From Bacteroidales bacterium (GTDB lineage Bacteria > Bacteroidota > Bacteroidia > Bacteroidales > Paludibacteraceae): a stretch of 35,780 nucleotides of DNA. The first letter of the stretch is position 1; every line of letters begins with the position of its first letter. The translations under genes were made by a program, and so were the position numbers. Of this stretch, positions 823 to 13,435 are shown one piece after another. The notes below the pieces were generated by a model. It was given only the letters and a program-made list of their open reading frames with translations, had not been told where the DNA came from and ran no database searches. The stretch spans positions 1 through 35,780 of the forward strand of contig JAATGT010000141.1 in assembly GCA_015654525.1 (NCBI GenBank). The letters are read 5' to 3'.

Positions 823-2118
823 TTATTCAAAAGATTTTTTTGCCAATAGTTTTATGGGGGTGCATCGTTCTATCAGAGTTCTGTCATCAGTAATTATCTC
901 CGCTGTACCGGTCATTTCTCCCGAAAATTTCAACTCTCTATTTACAGTTGAATGTAATCCTTTCGGGAAATCGACTTCCACGGAATAATAATCATTATTT
1001 GATATTAAGGAGATATTCTTTGTTTTGGCCTGTAAGAACCCGTATTCCAGATAAGGATAACCTGAAACTTTAATATTGACTTTCTGCCCGACATGAACCT
1101 TTCCCGATCCGGAGGCAGGAACCTTTATCTTTCCAATCAGTTGCCCCGGCTTTCGGGAAACTATAGCAAAGACCTTATCACCGGAGGTTACAAATTGATT
1201 TCGTTTCCAAAAAGTATTGAAAGTTACAACCCCCGATTGCGGGGCTATCAGTAAATAGCTTTGTTGCCAGGTTTCAATAGCAGCTATTAATTCCCGTTGG
1301 GATGATTTCAATTCTGAGAATAACTGATGTTTTTCTTGCAGATATTGCAAGGAAAGTTTATTTACAGACTCTTTCATTTGTAAAAACTCTACGTTTTGTA
1401 ATGAAATAGATGTTTTAAGTTGGAGCAGGTCCTGCTGTTTATTTAAATAGGTTTGCTCGGCCGTTTCCATATCGGATGCTGAGATTATTTTCTGCCCAAA
1501 CAGTAGTTTATCCCTTTCATACGCCGACTTTGCAATAACCAGTTCATGTTTTTTCATTTCTAACTGTTTTTGCAGGTTAGAGGCATAAACCGTTCGGTTT
1601 ACTATTTGTTTTTGCACAGAGTTTTTTTCCTGAATTGTCAGATTCAGAGTCAAAAAGTTATCGTAGTTCATAGCTGCTTTGGTAAAAGCGGAAAAATTGG
1701 ATTGTAAAGCTCCCAATTCAAATGACCGGAGTACTAACTCCCGGGGAATACTAAAGGTCTGATCATTCACAATCACTTGCGAAAGGAGTCGATCTACCTG
1801 CTGCACATCGGTGGTTACTGCCGAATTATCAATGACCGCCAACACATCACCCTGATGAACAGCCTGCTTATCGGAGCATAACAATTCTTTTATTTTTCCG
1901 GTAGATTTGGCAACAAGCCACACCGGCGGATTTTCGGTAGTAATAACCACATCGCCCGATACCACATCGGGGTACCGAAAAAAGAAACTACCGACAAACA
2001 AGATGACCATTACTCCACAAATAACAGATATTCCATACCTGATAAGTGCATGCGGCGGGCGGGATAATATCTCCTGCACTTCCTCGCTACGTAATTCTAT
2101 TTTATCCGATTCTTCCAT
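823..2118 (-). CDS. HlyD-family membrane fusion protein of the peptide exporter
   Basis: A 431-residue periplasmic adaptor that would link the inner-membrane C39 ABC exporter to an outer-membrane channel. A short cytoplasmic N-terminus is followed by one membrane helix (about residues 27-47, YGISVICGVMVILFVGSFFF). A lipoyl/biotinyl-like half follows (GKIKELLCSDKQAVHQGDVLAVIDN), then a long coiled-coil hairpin (about 110-280) and the second half with the beta-barrel (LIAPQSGVVTF, then VHVGQKVNIKVSGYPYLEYG). It lies 68 bases after the exporter gene on the same strand, so the two are presumably co-transcribed. A TolC-like partner is not in view. The length is normal for bacteriocin-type HlyD proteins. 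Confidence 0.92.
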   Translation of the reverse strand: MEESDKIELRSEEVQEILSRPPHALIRYGISVICGVMVILFVGSFFFRYPDVVSGDVVITTENPPVWLVAKSTGKIKELLCSDKQAVHQGDVLAVIDNSAVTTDVQQVDRLLSQVIVNDQTFSIPRELVLRSFELGALQSNFSAFTKAAMNYDNFLTLNLTIQEKNSVQKQIVNRTVYASNLQKQLEMKKHELVIAKSAYERDKLLFGQKIISASDMETAEQTYLNKQQDLLQLKTSISLQNVEFLQMKESVNKLSLQYLQEKHQLFSELKSSQRELIAAIETWQQSYLLIAPQSGVVTFNTFWKRNQFVTSGDKVFAIVSRKPGQLIGKIKVPASGSGKVHVGQKVNIKVSGYPYLEYGFLQAKTKNISLISNNDYYSVEVDFPKGLHSTVNRELKFSGEMTGTAEIITDDRTLIERCTPIKLLAKKSFE

Positions 2119-2130
2119 TTACCTCTTTAA

Positions 2131-2187
2131 TTATCACATTACCACATCAACTCATCATCACATTACCATATCAACTAATCATCACAT
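2131..2187. repeat. 24-bp short tandem repeat between exporter and HlyD genes
   Basis: About two and a third imperfect copies of a 24-base unit beginning CACATTACCAYATCAACT, rich in ATC/CAT steps. It fills the spacer between the exporter stop and the HlyD start. No function is visible. Confidence 0.7.
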
Positions 2188-4379
2188 CATAGTTCCAGTT
2201 GATTCTTCACCAACCAATAATACGCTCCCTGTTTCTTCGTGAGTTCCTGATGTGTGCCTATTTCTACAATTTCACCTTTTTCCAGCACCACTATCTGATC
2301 GGCATTTTTTACCGTACTGAGTCGGTGAGCAATAACCACCGATGTTCGTCCTTCAAAAAAACGTTGCAGATTATCCATAATCACCCGCTCATTATTTGTA
2401 TCTAGTGCATTGGTAGCCTCATCCAGAAAAACAAAAGCCGGATTTTTATAAACTGCCCGGGCAATAAGTATCCGTTGTTTTTGACCCTGACTCAGGCCAT
2501 GCCCCTCGTTCCCTATTTTAGTATTGTACGACAAGGGCAATGTTTCTATAAAATCCCGAATGTTAGCTGTGATTACAGCCTGAAGCAATCTTTCTTTATC
2601 AATAATTTCAGCTCCGGGAGCAATGTTTTTGGCTATAGAGTCCGAAAAAATAAAACCGTCCTGCATCACCACGCCGCATTGTTTGCGCCACTCGCGAATG
2701 CTGTAATTTTTCATATTGTTTTCGCCCAACAGAATATCTCCTTTCTGCAAAGGATAAAAGCCCAACAGCAATTTAATCAGCGTGGTTTTTCCACTGCCGC
2801 TGGTACCTACAATGGCTGTCTGTTTACCCACCGGGATATTGAGCTGAATTCCCTTTATGACGGGTTTGCCTATAGAAGTGGCATCATAACCAAAGGTAGC
2901 ATTACGAAGAATCAGATCTTTATTGGTTGGTATTTCCCGTATGCGGCTTTCATCTTTTGCTTCTTCATCGTCTTTATCATGCACTTCACTCAGACGCTCT
3001 AAACTGAGTCTGGCATCCTGCGTTTCGCGCAAAAAAGAAATAAGTTGATCAACAGGTCCATTCAATTGCCCGATAATATATTGCACAGCCACCATCATAC
3101 CCAGCGTCATACTGCCATCAATAACCAACTTGGCCACCAAAGCAGTAATAACAATATTCTTGGTTTGATTGATAAGTACTGCACCCGAATCCTGATACTG
3201 TGCTAACGCCAGTCCTTTAACACGAAGACGGAAGAGTTTTGTATGGATACGTTCCCAGTCCCAACGTTTCTGCTGCTCACAGGCATTCAGTTTTATTTCT
3301 TGCATACCGGTTACCAGCTGTACGATATTGCTCTGATTAGCGGACAATTGAGCAAAACTTTTATGATCCAGTTCTGCCCGCCGTTTCATGAACAGCCATA
3401 CCCAACAAAAGTACAAAACACTACCAATAAAAAAAATGGCAAAAATCGTGTAGCTATAAAAAAACAATACAATGCTAAAAATAAAAATATTGACAACGGA
3501 AAAGAGTACGCTCAAACTCGAATTAGTCAAATAATTTTGGATTCGAACATGATCGTTAATGCGTTGCAGGATATCGCCCACCATTTTGGAATCGAAATAG
3601 CCCATGGGCAGGTGCATCAGTTTTATAAGAAAGTCCGAGACCAAAGCGATATTAATCCGTGTCCCTAAATGTAATAATATCCATCCACGGATAAAACCAA
3701 CGGCAGAGCTACTGAATGTAAGCACCAATTGCGCTATCAATACCAAATAAACATAACCTATATTCTGTCCGCTTATACCAAAATCGACAATGGACTGCGT
3801 CAGGAAAGGCAGCATCAGCTGCAATAAACTGCCAAAGAGAAGACCTAAAAAAAGCTGAACTATCAGTATTTTATAAGGCCGCAGATAAGAAAAAAGAAAG
3901 GAGAACCCTTTTCGGTTTACTTTCTCGTCTTCCTGTTCGTAAAAGTCAGGCGAGGGCTCCAACAGCAACGCCACGCCCACATCTTTTCCTTCATCTTTGG
4001 TGCTTATCCAGCACCGGCAAAACTCTTTTCTTGGATATTTCAATTTTCCTGCAGCAGGGTCAGCAACATATACTATTTCTTGTTCATACTTACCTTTAAT
4101 ATTGTATACCACCACAAAATGCTGTTGATTCCAATGAACAATACAAGGCAATGGTGCTCCCATCAAATCATTAAATGAAACTTTCACACCAGTACTTCTA
4201 AATCCAATATATTCTGCCGCCTCACTAATTCCTAACATTGAAACTCCTTCTCTCGTCATCAAAGTTTTCTCTCTCAAACTTTCCAACGAAAACGTACGGC
4301 CATAATGGGCAGATATTATTTGCAAACAAGTTGGACCACAATCCATAAAATCATGTTGTCGGAAAAATTTGAGATTCAT
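2187..4379 (-). CDS. C39 peptidase-containing ABC transporter (PCAT), Gly-Gly leader processing exporter
   Basis: Exporter that cleaves peptide leaders after Gly-Gly and secretes the released peptide. With the start at 4379 (MNLKFFRQHDF) it is 730 residues. The C39 domain comes first: Gln8 and the catalytic Cys14 in QHDFMDCGPTC, then the His of HWNQQHFVVV and the Asp of YVADPAAGK. A six-helix membrane domain follows (about 165-440), then the ATPase with Walker A GTSGSGKTT, signature LSQGQKQR and Walker B FVFLDEATNALD. An in-frame ATG at 4451 adds 24 residues, but C39 exporters normally begin a few residues before the Gln, so I prefer 4379. The 24-residue Gly-Gly leaders encoded at 8460-8576 and 10774-10890 are plausible substrates. 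The HlyD gene follows directly. Confidence 0.95.
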   Translation of the reverse strand: MNLKFFRQHDFMDCGPTCLQIISAHYGRTFSLESLREKTLMTREGVSMLGISEAAEYIGFRSTGVKVSFNDLMGAPLPCIVHWNQQHFVVVYNIKGKYEQEIVYVADPAAGKLKYPRKEFCRCWISTKDEGKDVGVALLLEPSPDFYEQEDEKVNRKGFSFLFSYLRPYKILIVQLFLGLLFGSLLQLMLPFLTQSIVDFGISGQNIGYVYLVLIAQLVLTFSSSAVGFIRGWILLHLGTRINIALVSDFLIKLMHLPMGYFDSKMVGDILQRINDHVRIQNYLTNSSLSVLFSVVNIFIFSIVLFFYSYTIFAIFFIGSVLYFCWVWLFMKRRAELDHKSFAQLSANQSNIVQLVTGMQEIKLNACEQQKRWDWERIHTKLFRLRVKGLALAQYQDSGAVLINQTKNIVITALVAKLVIDGSMTLGMMVAVQYIIGQLNGPVDQLISFLRETQDARLSLERLSEVHDKDDEEAKDESRIREIPTNKDLILRNATFGYDATSIGKPVIKGIQLNIPVGKQTAIVGTSGSGKTTLIKLLLGFYPLQKGDILLGENNMKNYSIREWRKQCGVVMQDGFIFSDSIAKNIAPGAEIIDKERLLQAVITANIRDFIETLPLSYNTKIGNEGHGLSQGQKQRILIARAVYKNPAFVFLDEATNALDTNNERVIMDNLQRFFEGRTSVVIAHRLSTVKNADQIVVLEKGEIVEIGTHQELTKKQGAYYWLVKNQLEL

Positions 4380-4818
4380 ATTGGAGAAAGAGTTATAGTG
4401 ATTATATACGCCTACACATAAATTAACAAATAAATTGTTTCTAAAATTCATATCTAAAAATAAAAATTCTTTCTTTGATTATTTAAATTAAACAAACTAG
4501 ATAAGTAATTGAATAAATATAATGTTATATGCATAATTACACCAAAAAGAAAATAAGAAGAACGCAAGCAAACGATGACGGAACAGTTTTTAAATAAACT
4601 TAAAGACTTGTCCGGATAATTTTCATAGTTCTACAACATGATAAGCCCTATGTTATAGTTAAAAACAAAAAAAACTATATCCGTTTTATTATTATCCACT
4701 TTATCTTTAAATGCTGGATTGTTGACATACTCAATCAGCATTCTATTTTTCTTTTTATAAACAACATCGAATTATTCCGGTTATTTCCATCTAGTGGAAA
4801 TTTTCGTCACTTGAATAA
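4380..4818. other. AT-rich gap between acetyltransferase and exporter genes
   Basis: No convincing gene. On the minus strand a 36-codon open frame (4631-4741) has no Gly-Gly motif, Met-rich start context or recognisable match. A small hairpin, TTTCCA-TCTAG-TGGAAA at 4784-4800, lies just after the acetyltransferase stop and may be a weak terminator or processing site. Both strands lack adjacent Gly-Gly codon pairs, so no further leader peptide is hidden here. Confidence 0.5.
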
Positions 4819-5352
4819 TTATTGAACAGAGTCTGAATTTCTATTTTTTAACGAATTTTGGAGTTCAAATGTAAAATACTCATCTCCACTAGCTGTGAGA
4901 TTTGTTGCCACTTTGCGTAAATTATTCTTTTGGCAGATTCTAACAGAAAAATTATTCTTGCTATACATCCTAGCGATTACCTTATCAATATTTAAACACT
5001 TAAAACTATATTCAATTAAACCCTCACAAGTTTCAGTTCCATAGTTATTATTCCAATATTGCGAATCGATGATATATCCTAACTCTAAAACATTACAGTC
5101 CTGAAATGAGTTAAACAAACCAGCTTCACCAACAATACAAGATTTTTTCTTAAGTTCAATAACAAAAAGACCATAACCAATATCATTATTAATTGCTTTA
5201 TATTTTTCTTTTAATTCATCTATCGTCCAATTATATCTACTATTTGATATATATAACATATTAATTGCCTTGTTATAAATTGACAAAAGAGAATTAAAAT
5301 CTCCATCTTCGACTCCACGGATAATTAAATTACTTGTTTCAAAAACTATCAT
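4819..5352 (-). CDS. GNAT-family N-acetyltransferase (RimJ/RimL-like)
   Basis: Acetyl-CoA-dependent N-acetyltransferase of 177 residues when started at 5352 (MIVFETSNLIIRG); the ATG 12 codons earlier at 5388 is possible but would reach into the IS200 end. The opening 'ETSNLIIRGVEDGDF' and the middle 'LELGYIIDSQYWNNNYGTETCEGLIEYSF' match the RimJ/RimL pattern (ETERLxLR and GYxLxxxxWxxGYxTE). It ends with 'ARMYSKNNFSVRICQKNNLRKV', the usual N-x-x-S-x-R-x-x-x-K helix. It lies between the propeller and exporter genes on the same strand, so it may acetylate the exported peptide, or give self-protection; both are inference. The IS200 remnant now separates it from the genes upstream. Confidence 0.85.
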   Translation of the reverse strand: MIVFETSNLIIRGVEDGDFNSLLSIYNKAINMLYISNSRYNWTIDELKEKYKAINNDIGYGLFVIELKKKSCIVGEAGLFNSFQDCNVLELGYIIDSQYWNNNYGTETCEGLIEYSFKCLNIDKVIARMYSKNNFSVRICQKNNLRKVATNLTASGDEYFTFELQNSLKNRNSDSVQ

Positions 5353-5369
5353 AACATTATTTTTTATTA

Positions 5370-5895
5370 ATAGACTACCTCGCAGCAAAGCTGACGAGGT
5401 ATTAAAACAAAGACAGCTGTTGACTATGTATCTTTTTGTATTCTTTTTCTCTACCTTGACCTTTTACATACGCTTGTATTGTAGATTCATCCCCATGTTT
5501 ACTCACAGTATTTACATAAAAACTTTTTGTTCAAAACTCTCCACCCAAGAGCTGTTTTTCACTTCCAAGTGAAGTCTAAATATCTCTTTTGCAGTTATGT
5601 TCTTTACTATTTGAATTATTTTCGTGGGGCAATACATAGGAACACTCTGTATCAAAAAATGAACATGATCTTTATCTGTCCCAATTTCTATAAAAATCAA
5701 TCTCATAACGATAGGAAATACCAATGCAGATGTCTTTCAAACTATTGTCAACTGCGTCTGAAAAAACTACTCGCCTATATTTAGCTTGGCAAACAAAATG
5801 ATACAGTAAGACTGTTACATTATGGCTTTTATGTATATATACTCACATAGCAAAAATACAATTAATTTTCGAAGCAGAGCTTCGAGGAATTAAAC
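5370..5895 (-). mobile_element. Decayed IS200/IS605-family element (IS200 type)
   Basis: Remnant of a single-strand transposing element with only a tnpA-like gene. Both ends keep subterminal hairpins: TACCTCG-CAGC-AAA-GCTG-A-CGAGGTA at 5376-5401 and TCGAAGC-AGA-GCTTCGA at 5869-5885. The element lies between the propeller and acetyltransferase genes, without damaging either reading frame. The exact outer ends are not determinable because IS200 elements make no target duplication. Confidence 0.8.
5402..5848 (-). pseudogene. IS200-type Y1 transposase pseudogene (tnpA)
   Basis: HUH-family Y1 transposase in pieces. Reading the minus strand, SHNVTVLLYHFVCQAKYRR lies in one frame, then GTDKDHVHFLIQSVP with the HUH motif (His-Val-His) in another, and the C-terminal part VNTVSKHGDESTIQAYVKG with the catalytic-Tyr helix in a third. 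A one-base gain lies in the A-run at 5692-5696, a one-base loss in the Lys-rich stretch near 5567-5575, a TGA replaces Trp in the EFW motif, and a TGA is the second codon after the ATG at 5848. All four make it inactive. Full-length relatives are about 150 residues. Confidence 0.85.
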
Positions 5896-5944
5896 CAAAC
5901 GAAAAAGCTTAAAAAAGCATATTCTCTTCATGTCTTTTCTAAAC

Positions 5945-7252
5945 CTATCTTTTAAATGGGAATGTATGACCAATTCCTCTACCTCTTGGTAAATAAAGAA
6001 TTACATCAAATAAATAATCTTCATCCATACCATAAATATAAAAGCATGTGTTTGAAGCTGCAATAATATATTTACTATCTTTTGATATCTCCAAACTTAA
6101 TGGTGATTGCTCTTCGAATACAAAATAACCTTCTTTTGTTGGTTCTGGTTTTGGATCAGGATAGATTCGTATTTTCCTGTATACAGTCATTGTCATCAAA
6201 TCTACTATTGTAAATTTGAAAGGTGTTGTTGTAAATACTAATAACTTTTTTCCATTATATGTAAATACTCTATGTTGTGTAGTTCTAAGACAGTCCGAAT
6301 CTGAAAATGAATCGACAATATTGGTCTGATTATCTCCTATTTTCAATTTTATAATAGATGCATATCCACCACCAACAGTACCAATTTGAGGTAAAACAAA
6401 AAGATTGTGTGCAGAAACATAAATCATTGAGCTATCATCAGGATCTAATTCGAAATGACCTGGAGATGGAACCGGAAGTTGAGTTTCCCAAAGTTTATTA
6501 TTATGTATATCATATGTAGCAACTTTACTATTATGCAATCCCGCTTTATAATACTTCTTCATTTCTTTTAATATATTTGGATCTGAGAATTGAGGATAAT
6601 TAATCACAAAACTCGTTAATACAAGATATTTATTGTCGGCTGAAATAGAAACTTGATGTACATCTTCTGGGAAACTGAAAGTATGTAATTGCTCAATCTC
6701 AAAACTATCCAACTTCAATCTACAAATTTCACAACGAACATATTTAGCTTTCCCATTTCTTACACTTACCATATCTTCCATTGGCCATCTTATAAAATAG
6801 AAAAACTTATAATCATTCGAGAAACAATTTGTTTTGCTGTATAACATCAACTTTTCATCAAAAGACTCCGGAATAAACATCGCCTTATTTCGATTCGTAT
6901 CAACACAAATTATTGAATACGCATTAGTCATAAATAAGTATTTTTCAGAAGGTGTATGACAAGTATGAGGTATTTGTACTAGAATGTCTTTAAGGTAAGA
7001 CTCCGTTACATTAAAGCTATTTTCGTCCTTATAAATTTCGGATATTTTGATTGGGTTCACAAACAAAGGAGTAAAAGTTCTCCGTAATATCTTTCTCATA
7101 CCAAAGTCAATTCTGTCAACTTGTATATTATTGTTCTTATCATGAAGCACATTAAAATATATACCCTTAAATTTAGGCAAATGTGATACATTTCCTCTAA
7201 ATTCTATTAATTCTGTACTTACATCCTGCGTTTTAAAATTAGTTTGATCCAT
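5945..7252 (-). CDS. Cytoplasmic beta-propeller-like protein of the peptide locus, function unknown
   Basis: A 435-residue protein that I cannot assign to a named family. It has repeated strand-turn units of propeller type, for example KYLFMTNAYSIICVDTNRNK, HQVSISADNKYLVLTSFVI, DSSMIYVSAHNLFVLPQ, RVFTYNGKKLLVFTTTPF and SLEISKDSKYIIAASNTCF, about six or seven blades. There is no signal peptide or lipobox, unlike the secreted 6-bladed propellers common in Bacteroidetes, so it should work in the cytoplasm. It starts 13 bases after the Rid-like gene and is surely translated from the same mRNA. That position, between precursor and exporter, suggests a role in modifying or binding the peptide, or as an immunity or scaffold protein. 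No catalytic residues can be named. Confidence 0.75.
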   Translation of the reverse strand: MDQTNFKTQDVSTELIEFRGNVSHLPKFKGIYFNVLHDKNNNIQVDRIDFGMRKILRRTFTPLFVNPIKISEIYKDENSFNVTESYLKDILVQIPHTCHTPSEKYLFMTNAYSIICVDTNRNKAMFIPESFDEKLMLYSKTNCFSNDYKFFYFIRWPMEDMVSVRNGKAKYVRCEICRLKLDSFEIEQLHTFSFPEDVHQVSISADNKYLVLTSFVINYPQFSDPNILKEMKKYYKAGLHNSKVATYDIHNNKLWETQLPVPSPGHFELDPDDSSMIYVSAHNLFVLPQIGTVGGGYASIIKLKIGDNQTNIVDSFSDSDCLRTTQHRVFTYNGKKLLVFTTTPFKFTIVDLMTMTVYRKIRIYPDPKPEPTKEGYFVFEEQSPLSLEISKDSKYIIAASNTCFYIYGMDEDYLFDVILYLPRGRGIGHTFPFKR

Positions 7253-7265
7253 ATAATTTTCTGAA

Positions 7266-8402
7266 TTAAAATTGAGGATATAATTTATCTGAATATATTT
7301 TTAATGCTATACATTCAACTTCAATTAACCACTCTGGTCGACAGACCTTTCCAAAGTTAACTATGTAAGGAGTATTCCTGAATTTCTTCTTTAAATATTT
7401 ATCCACAATCTTATAATCAGCAATATCCCTTATATATATAGTCATGCAAGCAATGTCATTGAGTTCAGCATTAGCATCTCTTAATAACATCTGAATATTT
7501 TTGAATAATCTCTTTGTCTGCATAATAACATTCTTTTCATGTAAGCATATTCCATTTTTGTCAATACTAGCCGTACCTGATATATAGATATGCTTTCTAT
7601 CACCATAATAGATACAAATTCCCCTTTCAAAGGATACTCCATAATTATAACTTTGATTTAAATACTCCGGAGCATTAAGATACCTTATCTGATTAAGAGA
7701 CAACCCTTTGATTGCATAAAAATCAACACAAATACCACAATCTATATTATAATTATTTCCCTCAATTCCAGTAGATGTAATAAAATGAGTATTTTTATTC
7801 AATCCATTATTGATGAATATCTTGTTTCTCGCATCTACAACATCAGAATAATTTCGATCTATATTATTAATATACAACCAAGTTCTTATAGTATTATCTA
7901 GCATTGTCATATCGTATTTCTTTAAATTATTAATATATTCTTGGTAAATACTCTCCGTTTGTTTAAAAACGCTATAAGGGTTATTTAAAACTACACTATT
8001 TAATTGATATAAATGAAGATAATTCGAGTTCTCATAAACAAATAAATTACCATCCTTTAGTCTATTAACATCATTTCGTTTTATCACATTCAAAATGATA
8101 TTGATTTTACTATTATTCAAAGGAGGTTGTTCGATTACTGATACTGCACATTCGCATAATATTGATTTTAACAACGCATGATCATTTAATTTATATATTT
8201 GATTTTTATAATCACTAATATATATTCTTGCAAATACAATATGTGAAATTGAAATTTGGAATTCATTAAAAACACTATAACAACAAGAGACTAGATTGTT
8301 TAACTGTTCATCAAAATCACAGTACTGGTTTGGTTTCAATGCGATATAACATTCAGGCGATTTTTTTGTATTTAAACAAAAAATTGAATATTCTTTTTTC
8401 AT
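7266..8402 (-). CDS. Rid/chorismatase-fold protein (FkbO/Hyg5-like) of the peptide locus
   Basis: A 378-residue protein built of Rid (YjgF)-like folds. The C-terminal third has the best signals: YGVSFERG (254-261), YISGTASIDKNG (273-284) and CRPEWLIEVECIA (354-366). The FkbO/Hyg5 chorismatase family, often labelled pteridine-dependent deoxygenase, carries S-G-T-A-S and C-R-P-x-x-L-x-E-I-E at these places. Residues about 145-230 (TIRTWLYINNI, then ITSTGIEG) look like the N-terminal half of that family. Residues 1-108 (FARIYISDYKNQ, AVSVIEQPPLNNSKI) look like a further Rid-type module. It follows the leader-peptide gene and overlaps the end of the intergenic hairpin. The activity is unknown: a chorismate-type reaction, imine/enamine chemistry on the peptide, or mere binding are all open. 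Confidence 0.75.
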   Translation of the reverse strand: MKKEYSIFCLNTKKSPECYIALKPNQYCDFDEQLNNLVSCCYSVFNEFQISISHIVFARIYISDYKNQIYKLNDHALLKSILCECAVSVIEQPPLNNSKINIILNVIKRNDVNRLKDGNLFVYENSNYLHLYQLNSVVLNNPYSVFKQTESIYQEYINNLKKYDMTMLDNTIRTWLYINNIDRNYSDVVDARNKIFINNGLNKNTHFITSTGIEGNNYNIDCGICVDFYAIKGLSLNQIRYLNAPEYLNQSYNYGVSFERGICIYYGDRKHIYISGTASIDKNGICLHEKNVIMQTKRLFKNIQMLLRDANAELNDIACMTIYIRDIADYKIVDKYLKKKFRNTPYIVNFGKVCRPEWLIEVECIALKIYSDKLYPQF

Positions 8403-8415
8403 ATAAAAAAATTGA

Positions 8416-8446
8416 AAAGGGAGAATATAATAAATATTCTCCCTTT
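8416..8446 (-). terminator. Intrinsic terminator-like hairpin between precursor and modification genes
   Basis: A perfect 13-bp stem, AAAGGGAGAATAT at 8416-8428 and its complement at 8434-8446, with a 5-base loop. On the minus strand it is followed by TTCAATTTTTTT, a T-rich tract, and then by the ATG at 8402. It lies 14 bases after the precursor stop. It is best read as a partial terminator or mRNA 3' stabiliser that keeps precursor transcript in excess over the enzymes, a common arrangement in peptide operons (inference). Confidence 0.8.
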
Positions 8447-8459
8447 AATTTAAAGACAA

Positions 8460-8576
8460 TTACCAGGGATATGTTATAGGAGCATCATTCTTAACAACAT
8501 CTCCACCACCATTAATTTTTGACAAATCGTCATTTCCTAGTTTAACCGCACTGTCTTTAATTGATTGCTTTTTCAT
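8460..8576 (-). CDS. Gly-Gly leader precursor peptide 1 (putative RiPP/bacteriocin precursor)
   Basis: A 38-residue peptide, too short for usual ORF cut-offs. The start MKKQSIKDSAVKLGNDD leads to LSKINGG at 18-24, the double-glycine leader motif of Bacteroidetes secreted peptides. Cleavage after Gly24 leaves a 14-residue core, GDVVKNDAPITYPW; Gly25 makes a cut one residue later possible. The core has no Cys or Ser and one Thr, so lanthionine or disulfide chemistry is unlikely; Lys, Asn, Asp, Tyr and Trp are the reactive residues. It is the first gene of a strand-wise run ending in a C39 exporter. No exact TAnnTTTG element is visible in the 139-base upstream gap. The peptide function (bacteriocin, signal, cofactor) is unknown. 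Confidence 0.85.
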   Translation of the reverse strand: MKKQSIKDSAVKLGNDDLSKINGGGDVVKNDAPITYPW

Positions 8577-10199: not shown

Positions 10200-10305
10200 G
10201 GTAGTTACTTTTTTATTTGTGAGTAATGAAGTTAATTCCGTTCGTAATTTCATCGTTATGGCTGAAACTGCAAATAGGCGCTTCTAAAAAAGGTTTTTTG
10301 AGGCT

Positions 10306-10575
10306 ATTTCAAAATTTTCAGACTTAATTATTCGTTTTTTGATAACATATTAAATTTTTTAGCCGTATTTTTTTTCATTTATGACCATTTCAAAATTTTC
10401 AGGATTAATTATTCATCGTTTGTTGACAATTGAAATTTTTTAGCCGTATTTTTTTGTCGTTTGTGACCATTTCAAAATTTTCAGCCTTAATTATTCGTCA
10501 TTTGTTGACAATTGAAATTTTTTAGCCGTGCTTTTTTGTCGTTTGCGACCATTTCAAAATTTTCAGCCTTGTTTT
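10306..10575. repeat. 82-bp tandem repeat, three units and a partial
   Basis: The core ATTTCAAAATTTTCAG recurs at 10306, 10387, 10469 and 10551, a period of 81-82 bases. Each unit continues with TTAATTATTCRT, then TTGAcAATTGAAATTTTTTAGCC, a T-run and GTCGTTTGYGACC. The last unit stops after about 25 bases. The units lie between precursor peptide 2 and the DUF6261 gene, upstream of the latter. No reading frame crosses them. They are too long and too alike across the whole unit for a CRISPR array. Confidence 0.85.
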
Positions 10576-10667
10576 TCTCGTATTCGTGATACCGGGACTT
10601 TTTTATAAATTCATTCAGGCATTTTTTATTAAATGCATGTTCGAAATTAGTTTATAGTATTTTGATC

Positions 10668-10773: not shown

Positions 10774-10890
10774 TCAAATAGTTTTTTCTACACCATCTTT
10801 GATAATTGTCACCCAAACTCCTCCTGCAATTTTACTCATTTCCGAAGGGGTGATTTTTTTAAACTTTGCTGCATTTTTTCTTGTTTGCAT
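10774..10890 (-). CDS. Gly-Gly leader precursor peptide 2
   Basis: A 38-residue peptide with the same layout as the one at 8460: a basic N-terminus (MQTRKNAAKFKK), ITPSE, then MSKIAGG at residues 18-24 and a 14-residue core VWVTIIKDGVEKTI. Identical total length and identical leader length make chance unlikely. The core again lacks Cys and Ser but is otherwise unrelated to the first. The gene is alone on the minus strand; the C39 exporter 6 kb downstream could serve it. It is divergent from a histidine kinase/response regulator pair, an arrangement known from peptide-pheromone loci. Whether it is a signal, bacteriocin or modified product is unknown. Confidence 0.75.
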   Translation of the reverse strand: MQTRKNAAKFKKITPSEMSKIAGGVWVTIIKDGVEKTI

Positions 10891-11078: not shown

Positions 11079-12419
11079 ATGAGAAATCTCATAATTACGT
11101 ATATTTCAATTTTGTGTTTGGTATTCATACTCATTTCGCAAATCGTTGTGCTAGTCAATTACTACCATGCAGTCAGCGAGTCATTAAAGCGTGAAACAGA
11201 CGCCGTACTAACCGAAGCCTATCATGCTGAACTGGATTTACGCGATAAATCTTTAAACAAAGGAACTAAAGACACCATCATTCCACCCCCAACCTCTAAA
11301 AATACCGTGGTTTATAATCTCGACAAGATGAAAATAAACAACAAGGATTTGCTGGGATCAATCAACACTGCCATTAACGATGTTGTGAGCAAAAAAAAAC
11401 CATTAAACATTCACAAACTGGATAGTATCATCTTTACGATATTACAGGCACGAAACATAGAGTCAAACTTTGTGATTCAGCTCGTTAACCCAACTACCGA
11501 GGAAGTGTTGGAGAGCTCAAAAAAATCATTTGCTGAGTCCGGTTTTCTGATTTATTCGAAACAGTTAGCACTCGATTTTGAAAATAAAAAATCATTGCAA
11601 CTTATATTGTTAAATCCGATGGCCAACATCTTTAAGCGAATGGGGACGGTGCTTATCAGCTCGTTACTACTGGCTTTGTTTGGCGTGTATGGTATCTGGT
11701 TTTTGTTTCGCACGCAGGCCCGCCAGAAAAAGCTGATGGCGGTAAAAAATGATTTTTTCGGCAATACGGCTCATGAACTTAAACGCCCGGTGGCACAGTT
11801 GCATCTGGCACTGGAGGCTCTGTCGAAACCGGCAGTAGACGAGAATAAAGTAAAAAAGGAACGCTATCTGGCCATTTCGAAAGAAGCTACCAAGGATATG
11901 TCGGAAAAAATCACCATGATCATGACACTGGCCATGGACGAAGAAGGAGTTTTCAAGCTCAACTATTCTCGGTTCAATCTGGCGGAAGAAGTGGAAAAAC
12001 TGAAAGAGCAGTTTTCCACTGTATCGGACAAAGAGGTGAGTATCCTGATAGAAAACAAGACAGACGATGCGAATATCAAAGCCGACAGGGATCACTTGCG
12101 ACAATGCATTGCCAACCTGATTGATAATGCCATTAAATATTCAGGAGCATCGGTGCTGATTTCTATCAGTATCCGGAGAATAAAAAATTCGCTATGCGTA
12201 TCGGTAAAAGATAACGGGATAGGCATTAAGCCCGAAAAAGTGGAACGCGTATTTACGAAATATACCCGACTAAACACCGAATCCGGATCGCCAGCCGGCT
12301 TTGGTATCGGACTTAGCTATGTAAAAACCGTAGTGGAAAAACACTCCGGACGCATTGAAGTAAAAAGCGAAATAGAAAAAGGAAGTGAGTTTATAGTCTA
12401 TCTCCCCTTCGGGCGTTAG
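11079..12419 (+). CDS. Membrane sensor histidine kinase
   Basis: A 446-residue HisKA-type kinase. Membrane helices at about residues 5-28 and 190-210 enclose a periplasmic domain of about 160 residues of no recognised family. The dimerisation box is FFGNTAHELKRPVAQL with the phospho-acceptor His232; then N-box NLIDNAIKYSG, G1 box VKDNGIGIKPE and G2 box GFGIGLSYVK. There is no obvious HAMP domain. The residue four after the His, normally Thr or Asn in HExxT/N, is Arg, which may weaken phosphatase activity. The response regulator follows after a long repeat spacer, and a Gly-Gly peptide gene is divergent, so the ligand may be a peptide (inference). Confidence 0.93.
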   Translation: MRNLIITYISILCLVFILISQIVVLVNYYHAVSESLKRETDAVLTEAYHAELDLRDKSLNKGTKDTIIPPPTSKNTVVYNLDKMKINNKDLLGSINTAINDVVSKKKPLNIHKLDSIIFTILQARNIESNFVIQLVNPTTEEVLESSKKSFAESGFLIYSKQLALDFENKKSLQLILLNPMANIFKRMGTVLISSLLLALFGVYGIWFLFRTQARQKKLMAVKNDFFGNTAHELKRPVAQLHLALEALSKPAVDENKVKKERYLAISKEATKDMSEKITMIMTLAMDEEGVFKLNYSRFNLAEEVEKLKEQFSTVSDKEVSILIENKTDDANIKADRDHLRQCIANLIDNAIKYSGASVLISISIRRIKNSLCVSVKDNGIGIKPEKVERVFTKYTRLNTESGSPAGFGIGLSYVKTVVEKHSGRIEVKSEIEKGSEFIVYLPFGR

Positions 12420-12730: not shown

Positions 12731-13435
12731 ATGACTGAAAAGAATAAAATTTTACTGATCGAAGATGATGCCAACCTGGCTTTTATGCTCACCGACGGAC
12801 TGGAGAGCGAAGGTTTCACGGTGCTTCACTTGTCCGAAGGTGAAAAGGCACTGCAGGCACAGGTCGATTTTCAGCCGGATATTATTTTGCTGGATGTAAA
12901 CCTGAAGGGAGTGATGAATGGTTTTGAGGTGAGCAAGAAGATCAGGCAAGGGAGTCAGGTGCCTGTTATTTTTACCACATCGCGTACACAAATTGAAGAT
13001 GTGCAGGAAGGCTTCGGAATAGGGCATGTAGATTACCTGAAAAAACCTTTCGGCATGCGGGAACTTATCCTGCGTATCAATGAACTGCTATCGCGCTCAT
13101 CCAACCAAAAAGCTGTTAGTCAGGCATGCCATATCGGGAATTTTCTATTTTCGGCTAGTGAACACCTGCTGCAAGTAGGGAACGAAAAAATACATTTACA
13201 AAAAAATGAATGTGCAGTGCTGGTTTTGTTGCTCAAAAACCAGGGACAGGTAGTACACAAAAACTGCATTCTCGAATCGGTATGGAACGAGGATACCGAC
13301 GTAAAAACCAAAGAAGCATCGCTCCACAATATCCTGTCGTCGCTCCGCCACAAGCTCAGCACCGACAACCGGATTCACATTGAAACCATTCCAAAGATTG
13401 GCTATAAGCTGACGATAGAGGAACCTGATGTGTAG
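12731..13435 (+). CDS. OmpR/PhoB-type response regulator
   Basis: A 234-residue DNA-binding response regulator, partner of the kinase upstream. The receiver domain has the acidic pair Glu11-Asp12-Asp13 (LLIEDD), phospho-acceptor Asp55 (IILLDV), Thr in FTTSRT and Lys in VDYLKKPF. The winged-helix domain covers about residues 130-230 (LQKNECAVLVLLLKNQGQVV, LRHKL, IPKIGYKL). The two genes share a strand, but a 311-base repeat array separates them. Its target is not known; the palindrome at 10913 is one candidate. Confidence 0.93.
   Translation: MTEKNKILLIEDDANLAFMLTDGLESEGFTVLHLSEGEKALQAQVDFQPDIILLDVNLKGVMNGFEVSKKIRQGSQVPVIFTTSRTQIEDVQEGFGIGHVDYLKKPFGMRELILRINELLSRSSNQKAVSQACHIGNFLFSASEHLLQVGNEKIHLQKNECAVLVLLLKNQGQVVHKNCILESVWNEDTDVKTKEASLHNILSSLRHKLSTDNRIHIETIPKIGYKLTIEEPDV

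Follow-up and report, generated by a model that had tools for sequence, protein, structure and literature searches.

A 35,780-nucleotide stretch of DNA from a Bacteroidales bacterium of the Paludibacteraceae (contig JAATGT010000141.1 of assembly GCA_015654525.1, analysed whole and called the window here) carries six genes on its minus strand: a short Gly-Gly leader peptide gene (precursor 1), a Rid/chorismatase-fold protein, a beta-propeller protein, a GNAT acetyltransferase, a C39 peptidase/ABC exporter and an HlyD-type membrane fusion protein (Table 1). The reading we favour, tentatively and with a little less than even confidence, is that a maturation cassette was acquired and now works with a resident exporter; its Rid-propeller pair, drawn from an aromatic or glycan pathway, would serve to decorate precursor 1 ahead of cleavage by the C39 domain. 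It starts from what is observed: the genes and their order, a break in base composition, conserved catalytic residues, conservation of the pair in other genomes, and the varying cargo of related exporters.

An earlier note, made from the letters and open reading frames (ORFs) alone, had named these six genes, and the ORF list together with Pfam and NCBIfam scans finds all of them, of the kinds named; the second Gly-Gly ORF with its neighbouring kinase and regulator genes, the IS200-type remnant, the hairpin and the composition break described below are additions to that note. The exporter joins ABC domains to a C39 peptidase (Peptidase_C39, 2.5e-31) in which the Cys (DCGPTC) and Gln (RQHD) that the note had called intact are readable, along with His (HWNQQHF) and Asp (ADPA), residues that presumably play their usual roles in the peptidase; it probably starts at Met25 (4379), the point where its relatives begin. 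An exporter relative at E 1e-150 or better occurs in 32 of 200 genomes of the family, the own genome counted. Our comparison took in 18 exporter regions, several on short contigs and one from the own genome itself, around its second exporter; exporter identity is 54-87%. HlyD (HlyD_3, 4.3e-11) is 76-80% identical in the four closest of the relatives that have it. Under a leader rule looser than the strict one used below, which in the window yields the same two ORFs only, a leader-like Gly-Gly ORF stands at 13 of the 18 loci, with one more (L098) recognized by eye; two loci (L111, L112) each have an additional rule match that is not leader-like, and as a control any match to the rule was found in 3 of 29 short Rid-only loci. 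The cargo beside these exporters varies, with Cys-rich peptides at L097 and L098, a peptide adjoining a radical-SAM-like protein at L100 and another adjoining an ATP-grasp-like protein at L101 (both by eye), and plain Gly-Gly peptides at further loci including L102-L106. The window's Rid, propeller and GNAT proteins have no match at any of the 18 loci (E 1e-8, ORFs of at least 60 amino acids).

How much weight can a 38-codon ORF bear? Two window ORFs satisfy the strict leader rule, precursor 1, whose leader ends in SKINGG and whose core holds a single Lys and, as the earlier note had it, neither Cys nor Ser, and a second peptide at 10774-10890. In 200 dinucleotide-preserving shuffles the same rule gave a mean of 0.255 ORFs, with at least one in 47 and at least two in 4. 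A single Gly-Gly ORF is thus weak evidence by itself, and two beside an exporter, a number matched by only 4 of the 200 shuffles, are better evidence than one. It could be that the 38-codon ORF is no gene at all, that the pair and the GNAT are an unrelated acquired operon, and that the exporter's cargo is the second peptide, which loosely resembles peptides beside related exporters; the 47 shuffled windows with a chance leader also speak for this. We consider it the least probable of the alternatives, as the leader of precursor 1 is canonical and its ORF stands first in the AT-rich block described below, with a strong hairpin after it; in the alignment that shows the loose likeness just mentioned, precursor 1 also reaches 32% against the second peptide. 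Precursor 1 matches ComC weakly (E 0.029, under the Pfam cut-off). Neither window peptide matches the TIGR04149 leader at E up to 10, and no radical SAM protein (a TIGR04149-type maturase) is present among the window ORFs scanned, a scan that covered all but about 11 ORFs beyond 19 kb.

The three enzyme genes, which lie between the exporter gene and an amidase gene, differ in composition from what surrounds them. G+C content is 0.275 in the GNAT gene, 0.301 in the propeller gene, 0.264 in the Rid gene and 0.342 in precursor 1, against 0.398-0.407 in the HlyD and exporter genes (exporter 0.407), 0.421 in an amidase gene, 0.421-0.456 in the amidase and DUF6261 genes together and 0.384 in the window, and the AT-rich signal rests on the three enzyme genes. 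In the 57 bp between precursor 1 and the Rid gene lies a hairpin of 13 pairs followed by T; terminator-like sites as such are no commoner in the region than in shuffles (3 versus 3.2). The common strand, the composition break, the hairpin and the neighbouring IS200-type remnant agree with acquisition of a block at the exporter's cargo position, and the cassette may have moved as one unit.

What does the Rid-fold protein do? The Rid/FkbO-like label given by the earlier note holds, with matches to Ribonuc_L-PSP (2.6e-18) and, more weakly, to the FkbO/Hyg5 model (1.2e-10); the RidA model TIGR00004 scores 45.8 bits, below its cut-off of 106.25. A ten-member Rid profile finds Hyg5 (5ag3) at 2.3e-16 and FkbO (4bps) at 2e-11, and Glu334, Cys327, Gly173 and Gly240 of Hyg5 align with E361, C354, G212 and G276, invariant in all ten members, so that the catalytic Glu and the Hyg5-type Gly, Gly and Cys are all present. 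R355 and E361 also fall on the conserved Arg and Glu of RidA-type chains; with the Arg retained, the protein might also perform imine chemistry. The importance of these two RidA residues is described in PMC4433059. PMC7170507 gives Glu334 as the acid that starts the Hyg5 reaction and lists the Gly, Gly and Cys by their Nat-hyg5 numbers; converting these to Hyg5 numbers by a shift of 9 was our own step and not the paper's. With the FkbO, Hyg5 and XanB2 chorismatases (PMC7170507) the window protein shares the Rid-type fold over its C-terminal half, homology beyond it and the four residues. A plain RidA deaminase is less likely, given the longer chorismatase-like architecture, though Arg and Glu are retained.

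Rid matches at E 1e-50 or better occur in 24 of 295 genomes of an order sample (our count), and the Rid copies paired with a propeller form one clade (support 100/99). Both trees were built without four short Rid matches (L028, L029, L030, L032), and the second also without six near copies or long branches (L018, L024, L031, L033, L036, L038). A single-query search with the Rid protein, which detects close kin only, found no relative in viral contigs. Rid homologues keep other company as well. Those of Acidiphilium and Acidithiobacillus adjoin SCP2 and two U32 genes; on the acidophile plasmids L035 and L036 the homologue is 34% identical and the U32 genes encode peptidases. In our own reading the three neighbours are UbiTUV, which suggests that a chorismatase there would make sense as a source of 4-hydroxybenzoate for anaerobic ubiquinone. 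Another homologue, in Parabacteroides, stands beside an annotated di-haem protein, and one in the own genome beside a protein with a haem motif (by eye). Distant chorismatase-fold proteins also directly follow a YncE-type propeller with CxxCH haem motifs at L033 (1483-3940) and L038 (4010-6891), a second kind of propeller-Rid neighbourhood.

To the partner protein, left unassigned by the earlier note, Pfam and NCBIfam indeed give no significant match, and its propeller shape comes from a predicted model (predicted template-modelling score, pTM, 0.75; mean predicted local distance difference test score 68.8). In Foldseek this model finds hydrazine synthase first and then mostly WD40-type propellers, and none of its 50 listed matches is a carotenoid oxygenase, the model being poorer than that of a Desulfovibrio relative (pTM 0.86). 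For the relative, NirN comes first and 32 among the 50 listed matches are carotenoid, apocarotenoid, stilbene or aromatic cleavage oxygenases, at template-modelling scores of about 0.4-0.5 and with many being copies of few enzymes. Across 11 propellers, with identity down to 20%, 30 columns are invariant and six of these are His (binomial P 0.0008 at 3.8% His, kinship ignored); going by the predicted models, five of the six would lie at inner-strand starts (H96, H199, H266, H327 and, on the closing strand, H429). The propeller probably is an enzyme that uses a metal, its channel containing a cluster of His. An oxygenase is only possible, because Desulfovibrio are anaerobes. The likeness to carotenoid and stilbene cleavage oxygenases, which according to PMC6097328 have a four-His iron site in a seven-bladed propeller, lies in the relative's model and in the apparent placement of the His. 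Membership of that family, suggested first by the invariant His, ahead of all fold comparisons, and then by the relative's Foldseek matches, was considered and rejected: hhalign gives a profile-profile probability of 3.4% against seven plasmid-borne oxygenases, less than the 7.3% for a YncE-type propeller-cytochrome protein, and the His spacing differs. PF03055 does not list the window propeller at E up to 1 or ten members at 0.1, and among 61 genomes from the own phylum none has a match to it. We keep the carotenoid oxygenases as an analogy. The window propeller is without the N-terminal domain found in most relatives; its alignment finds no relative in viral contigs, and there is none in phages.

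For the propeller, a plasmid search gave a single match, Smac51 from a cockroach hindgut, where the Rid gene overlaps the end of the propeller gene; among genome contigs, a single propeller query confirmed none and a two-row alignment gave nine loci, in seven Desulfovibrio-type metagenome-assembled genomes (MAGs), Smac51 and one Prevotella MAG. The earlier note had proposed looking for the two proteins as neighbours, and in this respect its proposal fared well: they adjoin at six of the nine loci (L040-L043, L045, L046), in the window's order at five, with gaps from an overlap up to about 500 bp (L043). In contrast to the window, these pairs have other surroundings, a propeller with an extra N-terminal domain, and 51-69% G+C in the five pairs measured. 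The Rid protein occurs in six of the eight propeller genomes searched whole, that of L047 lying on another contig; the genomes of L044 and L048 contain no Rid match at 1e-10. In a family sample of one Desulfovibrio relative the propeller occurs in 4 of 199 genomes, one of which, G992, has a distant 470-residue form; the 14 kb examined there contain no Rid, and the neighbouring protein matches radical-SAM models weakly (NCBIfam 8e-6, under the cut-off; no Pfam match at 1e-5). Judged by this recurring adjacency, Rid and propeller are a real two-gene module.

The other half of that proposal, that a Gly-Gly peptide and a C39 exporter would recur with the two proteins, found no counterpart on the flanks searched: there, homologues of the pair occur mostly without either, which for the pair as a class is largely the outcome that the note had named as refuting its proposal. 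Since no C39 exporter or convincing leader accompanies its relatives on those flanks, the pair is no dedicated peptide-maturation pair and would here have been recruited. This brings forward the main rival, in which Rid and propeller make up a small-molecule or glycan module of their own that landed next to a Gly-Gly peptide locus and does not touch the peptide, which is exported unmodified. Glycan-type genes stand at most propeller loci examined, a scan that covered neighbours other than those of L040, L044 and L045: a radical SAM/SPASM protein, a family-2 glycosyltransferase, a PglD-type transferase, WbqC and DegT at L041; a cytidylyltransferase, DegT, NeuB and an epimerase at L048; a formyltransferase, DegT and a glycosyltransferase on the Rid contig of L047's genome (L062); an epimerase and a B12/radical SAM protein at L043; an FkbM methyltransferase at L042; and a glycosyl transferase and sugar-type enzymes, by annotation, on Smac51. 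In the Prevotella MAG (L048) the propeller relative follows shortly after the NeuB and epimerase genes. The plain Gly-Gly peptides beside related exporters at L102-L106 point the same way, as does the lack of any match to the exporter's C39 part on the searched flanks of the nine propeller loci. Against this, Rid and propeller share strand, tight spacing and low G+C with the GNAT gene and adjoin precursor 1, and the window ORFs covered by the scan yielded no glycan gene. We regard such an independent module as a serious alternative, though a less probable one than recruitment to the peptide.

Further points weigh against an acquired maturation cassette. The composition of precursor 1 says little alone, because the second peptide, outside the block, has a G+C content of 0.333; translation of precursor 1, a putative gene, is itself part of the proposal; and the IS200-type remnant splits the propeller gene from the GNAT gene. 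With 41.2 bits the Rid protein stays far under the curated cut-off of 325 of the FkbO/Hyg5 chorismatase model TIGR04444, and it sits on a long branch, with approximately unbiased test p values of 0.25 when it is grouped with the paired clade and 0.50 for the other grouping, so that the trees neither establish nor reject descent with that clade. The scanned window ORFs yielded no CoA ligase. The propeller is confined to the own genome in samples of the order (1/295), family (1/200), phylum (1/395) and genus (1/48), which overlap and count the own genome, and neither there nor on the flanks of its relatives did the same association of precursor and enzymes recur. On flanks of 3.9-20.9 kb, the part searched, the exporter's C39 part has no blastp match at any of the nine propeller loci (at L044 only an ABC ATPase matched the exporter), and the looser leader rule gives three ORFs at two of the nine (L045, L047), none leader-like by eye.

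The earlier note had further proposed that the two middle proteins modify or guard the peptide. What stands is the setting, namely the Gly-Gly peptides that travel with 13 of the 18 exporters and an AT-rich block beside the precursor; modification itself is something we infer, and the pair's relatives show neither exporter nor leader on the flanks searched. Guarding seems improbable to us. GNATs provide self-protection in some peptide systems, and the window's GNAT is one Acetyltransf_3-type domain (4.1e-20) in 189 residues, so that Rid, propeller and GNAT might protect the producer or regulate production, for instance by acetylation-inactivation, with the peptide itself unmodified; yet the catalytic-type residues are kept in Rid and propeller relatives outside recognized peptide loci, and the two proteins therefore look like metabolic enzymes.

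For the acquired maturation cassette we envisage the following course; that the enzymes act on the peptide, which substrates they take, which metal is involved and in what sequence the steps run are inferred. An AT-rich cassette of precursor 1, Rid-fold enzyme, propeller and GNAT would have been acquired into the cargo position of a resident unit, and precursor 1 would be translated. The Rid-fold enzyme would produce or process a small aromatic derived from chorismate, or a related group; with its probable metal and His cluster, the propeller would process that product or the peptide; and the GNAT would acylate an amine, possibly that of the only Lys in the core. Cleavage after Gly-Gly by the C39 domain would follow, and exporter and HlyD would release the product. 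Going further, one might propose a new class of ribosomally synthesized and post-translationally modified peptide (RiPP) in which an aromatic group, provided or formed by a chorismatase-type enzyme, is reshaped by a propeller that depends on metal and is possibly carotenoid-oxygenase-like by fold without detectable descent, and is then attached to a Gly-Gly peptide by the GNAT or the pair, the cassette docking on resident C39 exporters while the same pair serves surface glycans in Desulfovibrio. We think this broader proposal unlikely, but worth stating. Should the enzymes act on the peptide, the maturation of ribosomal peptides would gain chorismate chemistry, and one module of two proteins would connect the decoration of glycans with that of peptides; should they not, an uncharacterized enzyme pair common to distant bacteria is exposed all the same.

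Known systems offer partial likenesses. Bacteroidales Gly-Gly peptides exported by C39/PCAT transporters, whose RiPP clusters were mined in PMC10352776, are alike in leader, C39-ABC exporter, HlyD and varied maturation genes, but in place of a radical SAM or other known RiPP enzyme the scanned window ORFs hold Rid, propeller and GNAT. Selidamides and nostolysamides, GNAT-acylated RiPPs (PMC13060382), also have a GNAT beside the precursor and a Lys in the core; NpuN, however, is a tandem GNAT whose relatives go with NHLP or Nif11 leaders, and the window has a single GNAT and a short Gly-Gly leader nearest, weakly, to ComC. A shallow search of the open-access literature found no description of the combination of Gly-Gly peptide, Rid and propeller.

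The resident side of the locus may be a unit in its own right. Related exporters at L102-L106 stand with one common peptide family, with cores such as YWLRIKTSDGRTTTVWL; four of these loci (partially in L104) also have a divergent kinase related to that of the window, and three have a related regulator. The second peptide, whose gene ends 188 bp from the kinase gene, is 19-39% identical to this family, an alignment in which precursor 1 also scores 32%, and it resembles the BlpC pheromone model weakly (E 0.024; 14.4 bits, the cut-off being 70). From gene content, the C39 exporter, HlyD, second peptide, kinase and regulator would form a resident peptide-export and signalling unit, and the second peptide with kinase and regulator is a candidate signalling circuit, since relatives join a similar peptide, kinase, regulator, C39 exporter and HlyD. 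Such a unit makes peptide signalling in this group directly testable.

Table 1. Features of the locus, with window positions
Feature	Position	Strand	Details
Gly-Gly precursor peptide 1 (putative)	8460..8576	-	38 codons; 24-residue leader, then core GDVVKNDAPITYPW, alternatively with one Gly less
Possible attenuator: terminator-like hairpin plus T tract in the gap from precursor 1 to the Rid gene	8416..8446	-	-17 kcal/mol, z -5.07
Rid/chorismatase-fold protein, 378 aa	7266..8402	-	E361, C354, G212, G276, R355 conserved
Beta-propeller protein, 435 aa	5945..7252	-	Invariant H96, H199, H266, H282, H327, H429
IS200-type transposase remnant	5402..5724	-	5402-5506 by eye; 5512-5724 by Pfam
GNAT acetyltransferase (Acetyltransf_3)	4819..5352	-	Pfam; probable ATG start at 5352 rather than the TTG at 5388 of the ORF list
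C39 peptidase/ABC exporter	2187..4379	-	Pfam; longest ORF starts at 4451
HlyD-type membrane fusion protein	823..2118	-	Pfam
Second Gly-Gly peptide	10774..10890	-	Loose likeness to peptide family beside related exporters
Sensor histidine kinase	11079..12419	+	38-41% to the kinases at three related exporters, 31% to a partial kinase at another
Response regulator	12731..13435	+	Best model RprY, under cut-off; 39-40% to regulators beside three related exporters

The Pfam part of the IS200-type remnant matches Y1_Tnp at 2.1e-9, covering positions 43-96 of the 121 in the profile. Apart from two tRNA-Asn, neither ARAGORN nor Rfam at gathering scores gave a match, and a scan for the Bacteroidota-type -7 motif was uninformative. 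An ABC ATPase gene at 1-507 is cut by the window edge; the same gene (94% over 63 amino acids) adjoins HlyD at L096, one of the near relatives of the exporter, and it is possible that this is an immunity transporter. Between the second Gly-Gly peptide and a DUF6261 gene lies an array of AT-rich repeats of about 41/82 bp (10287-10590), with five copies listed.

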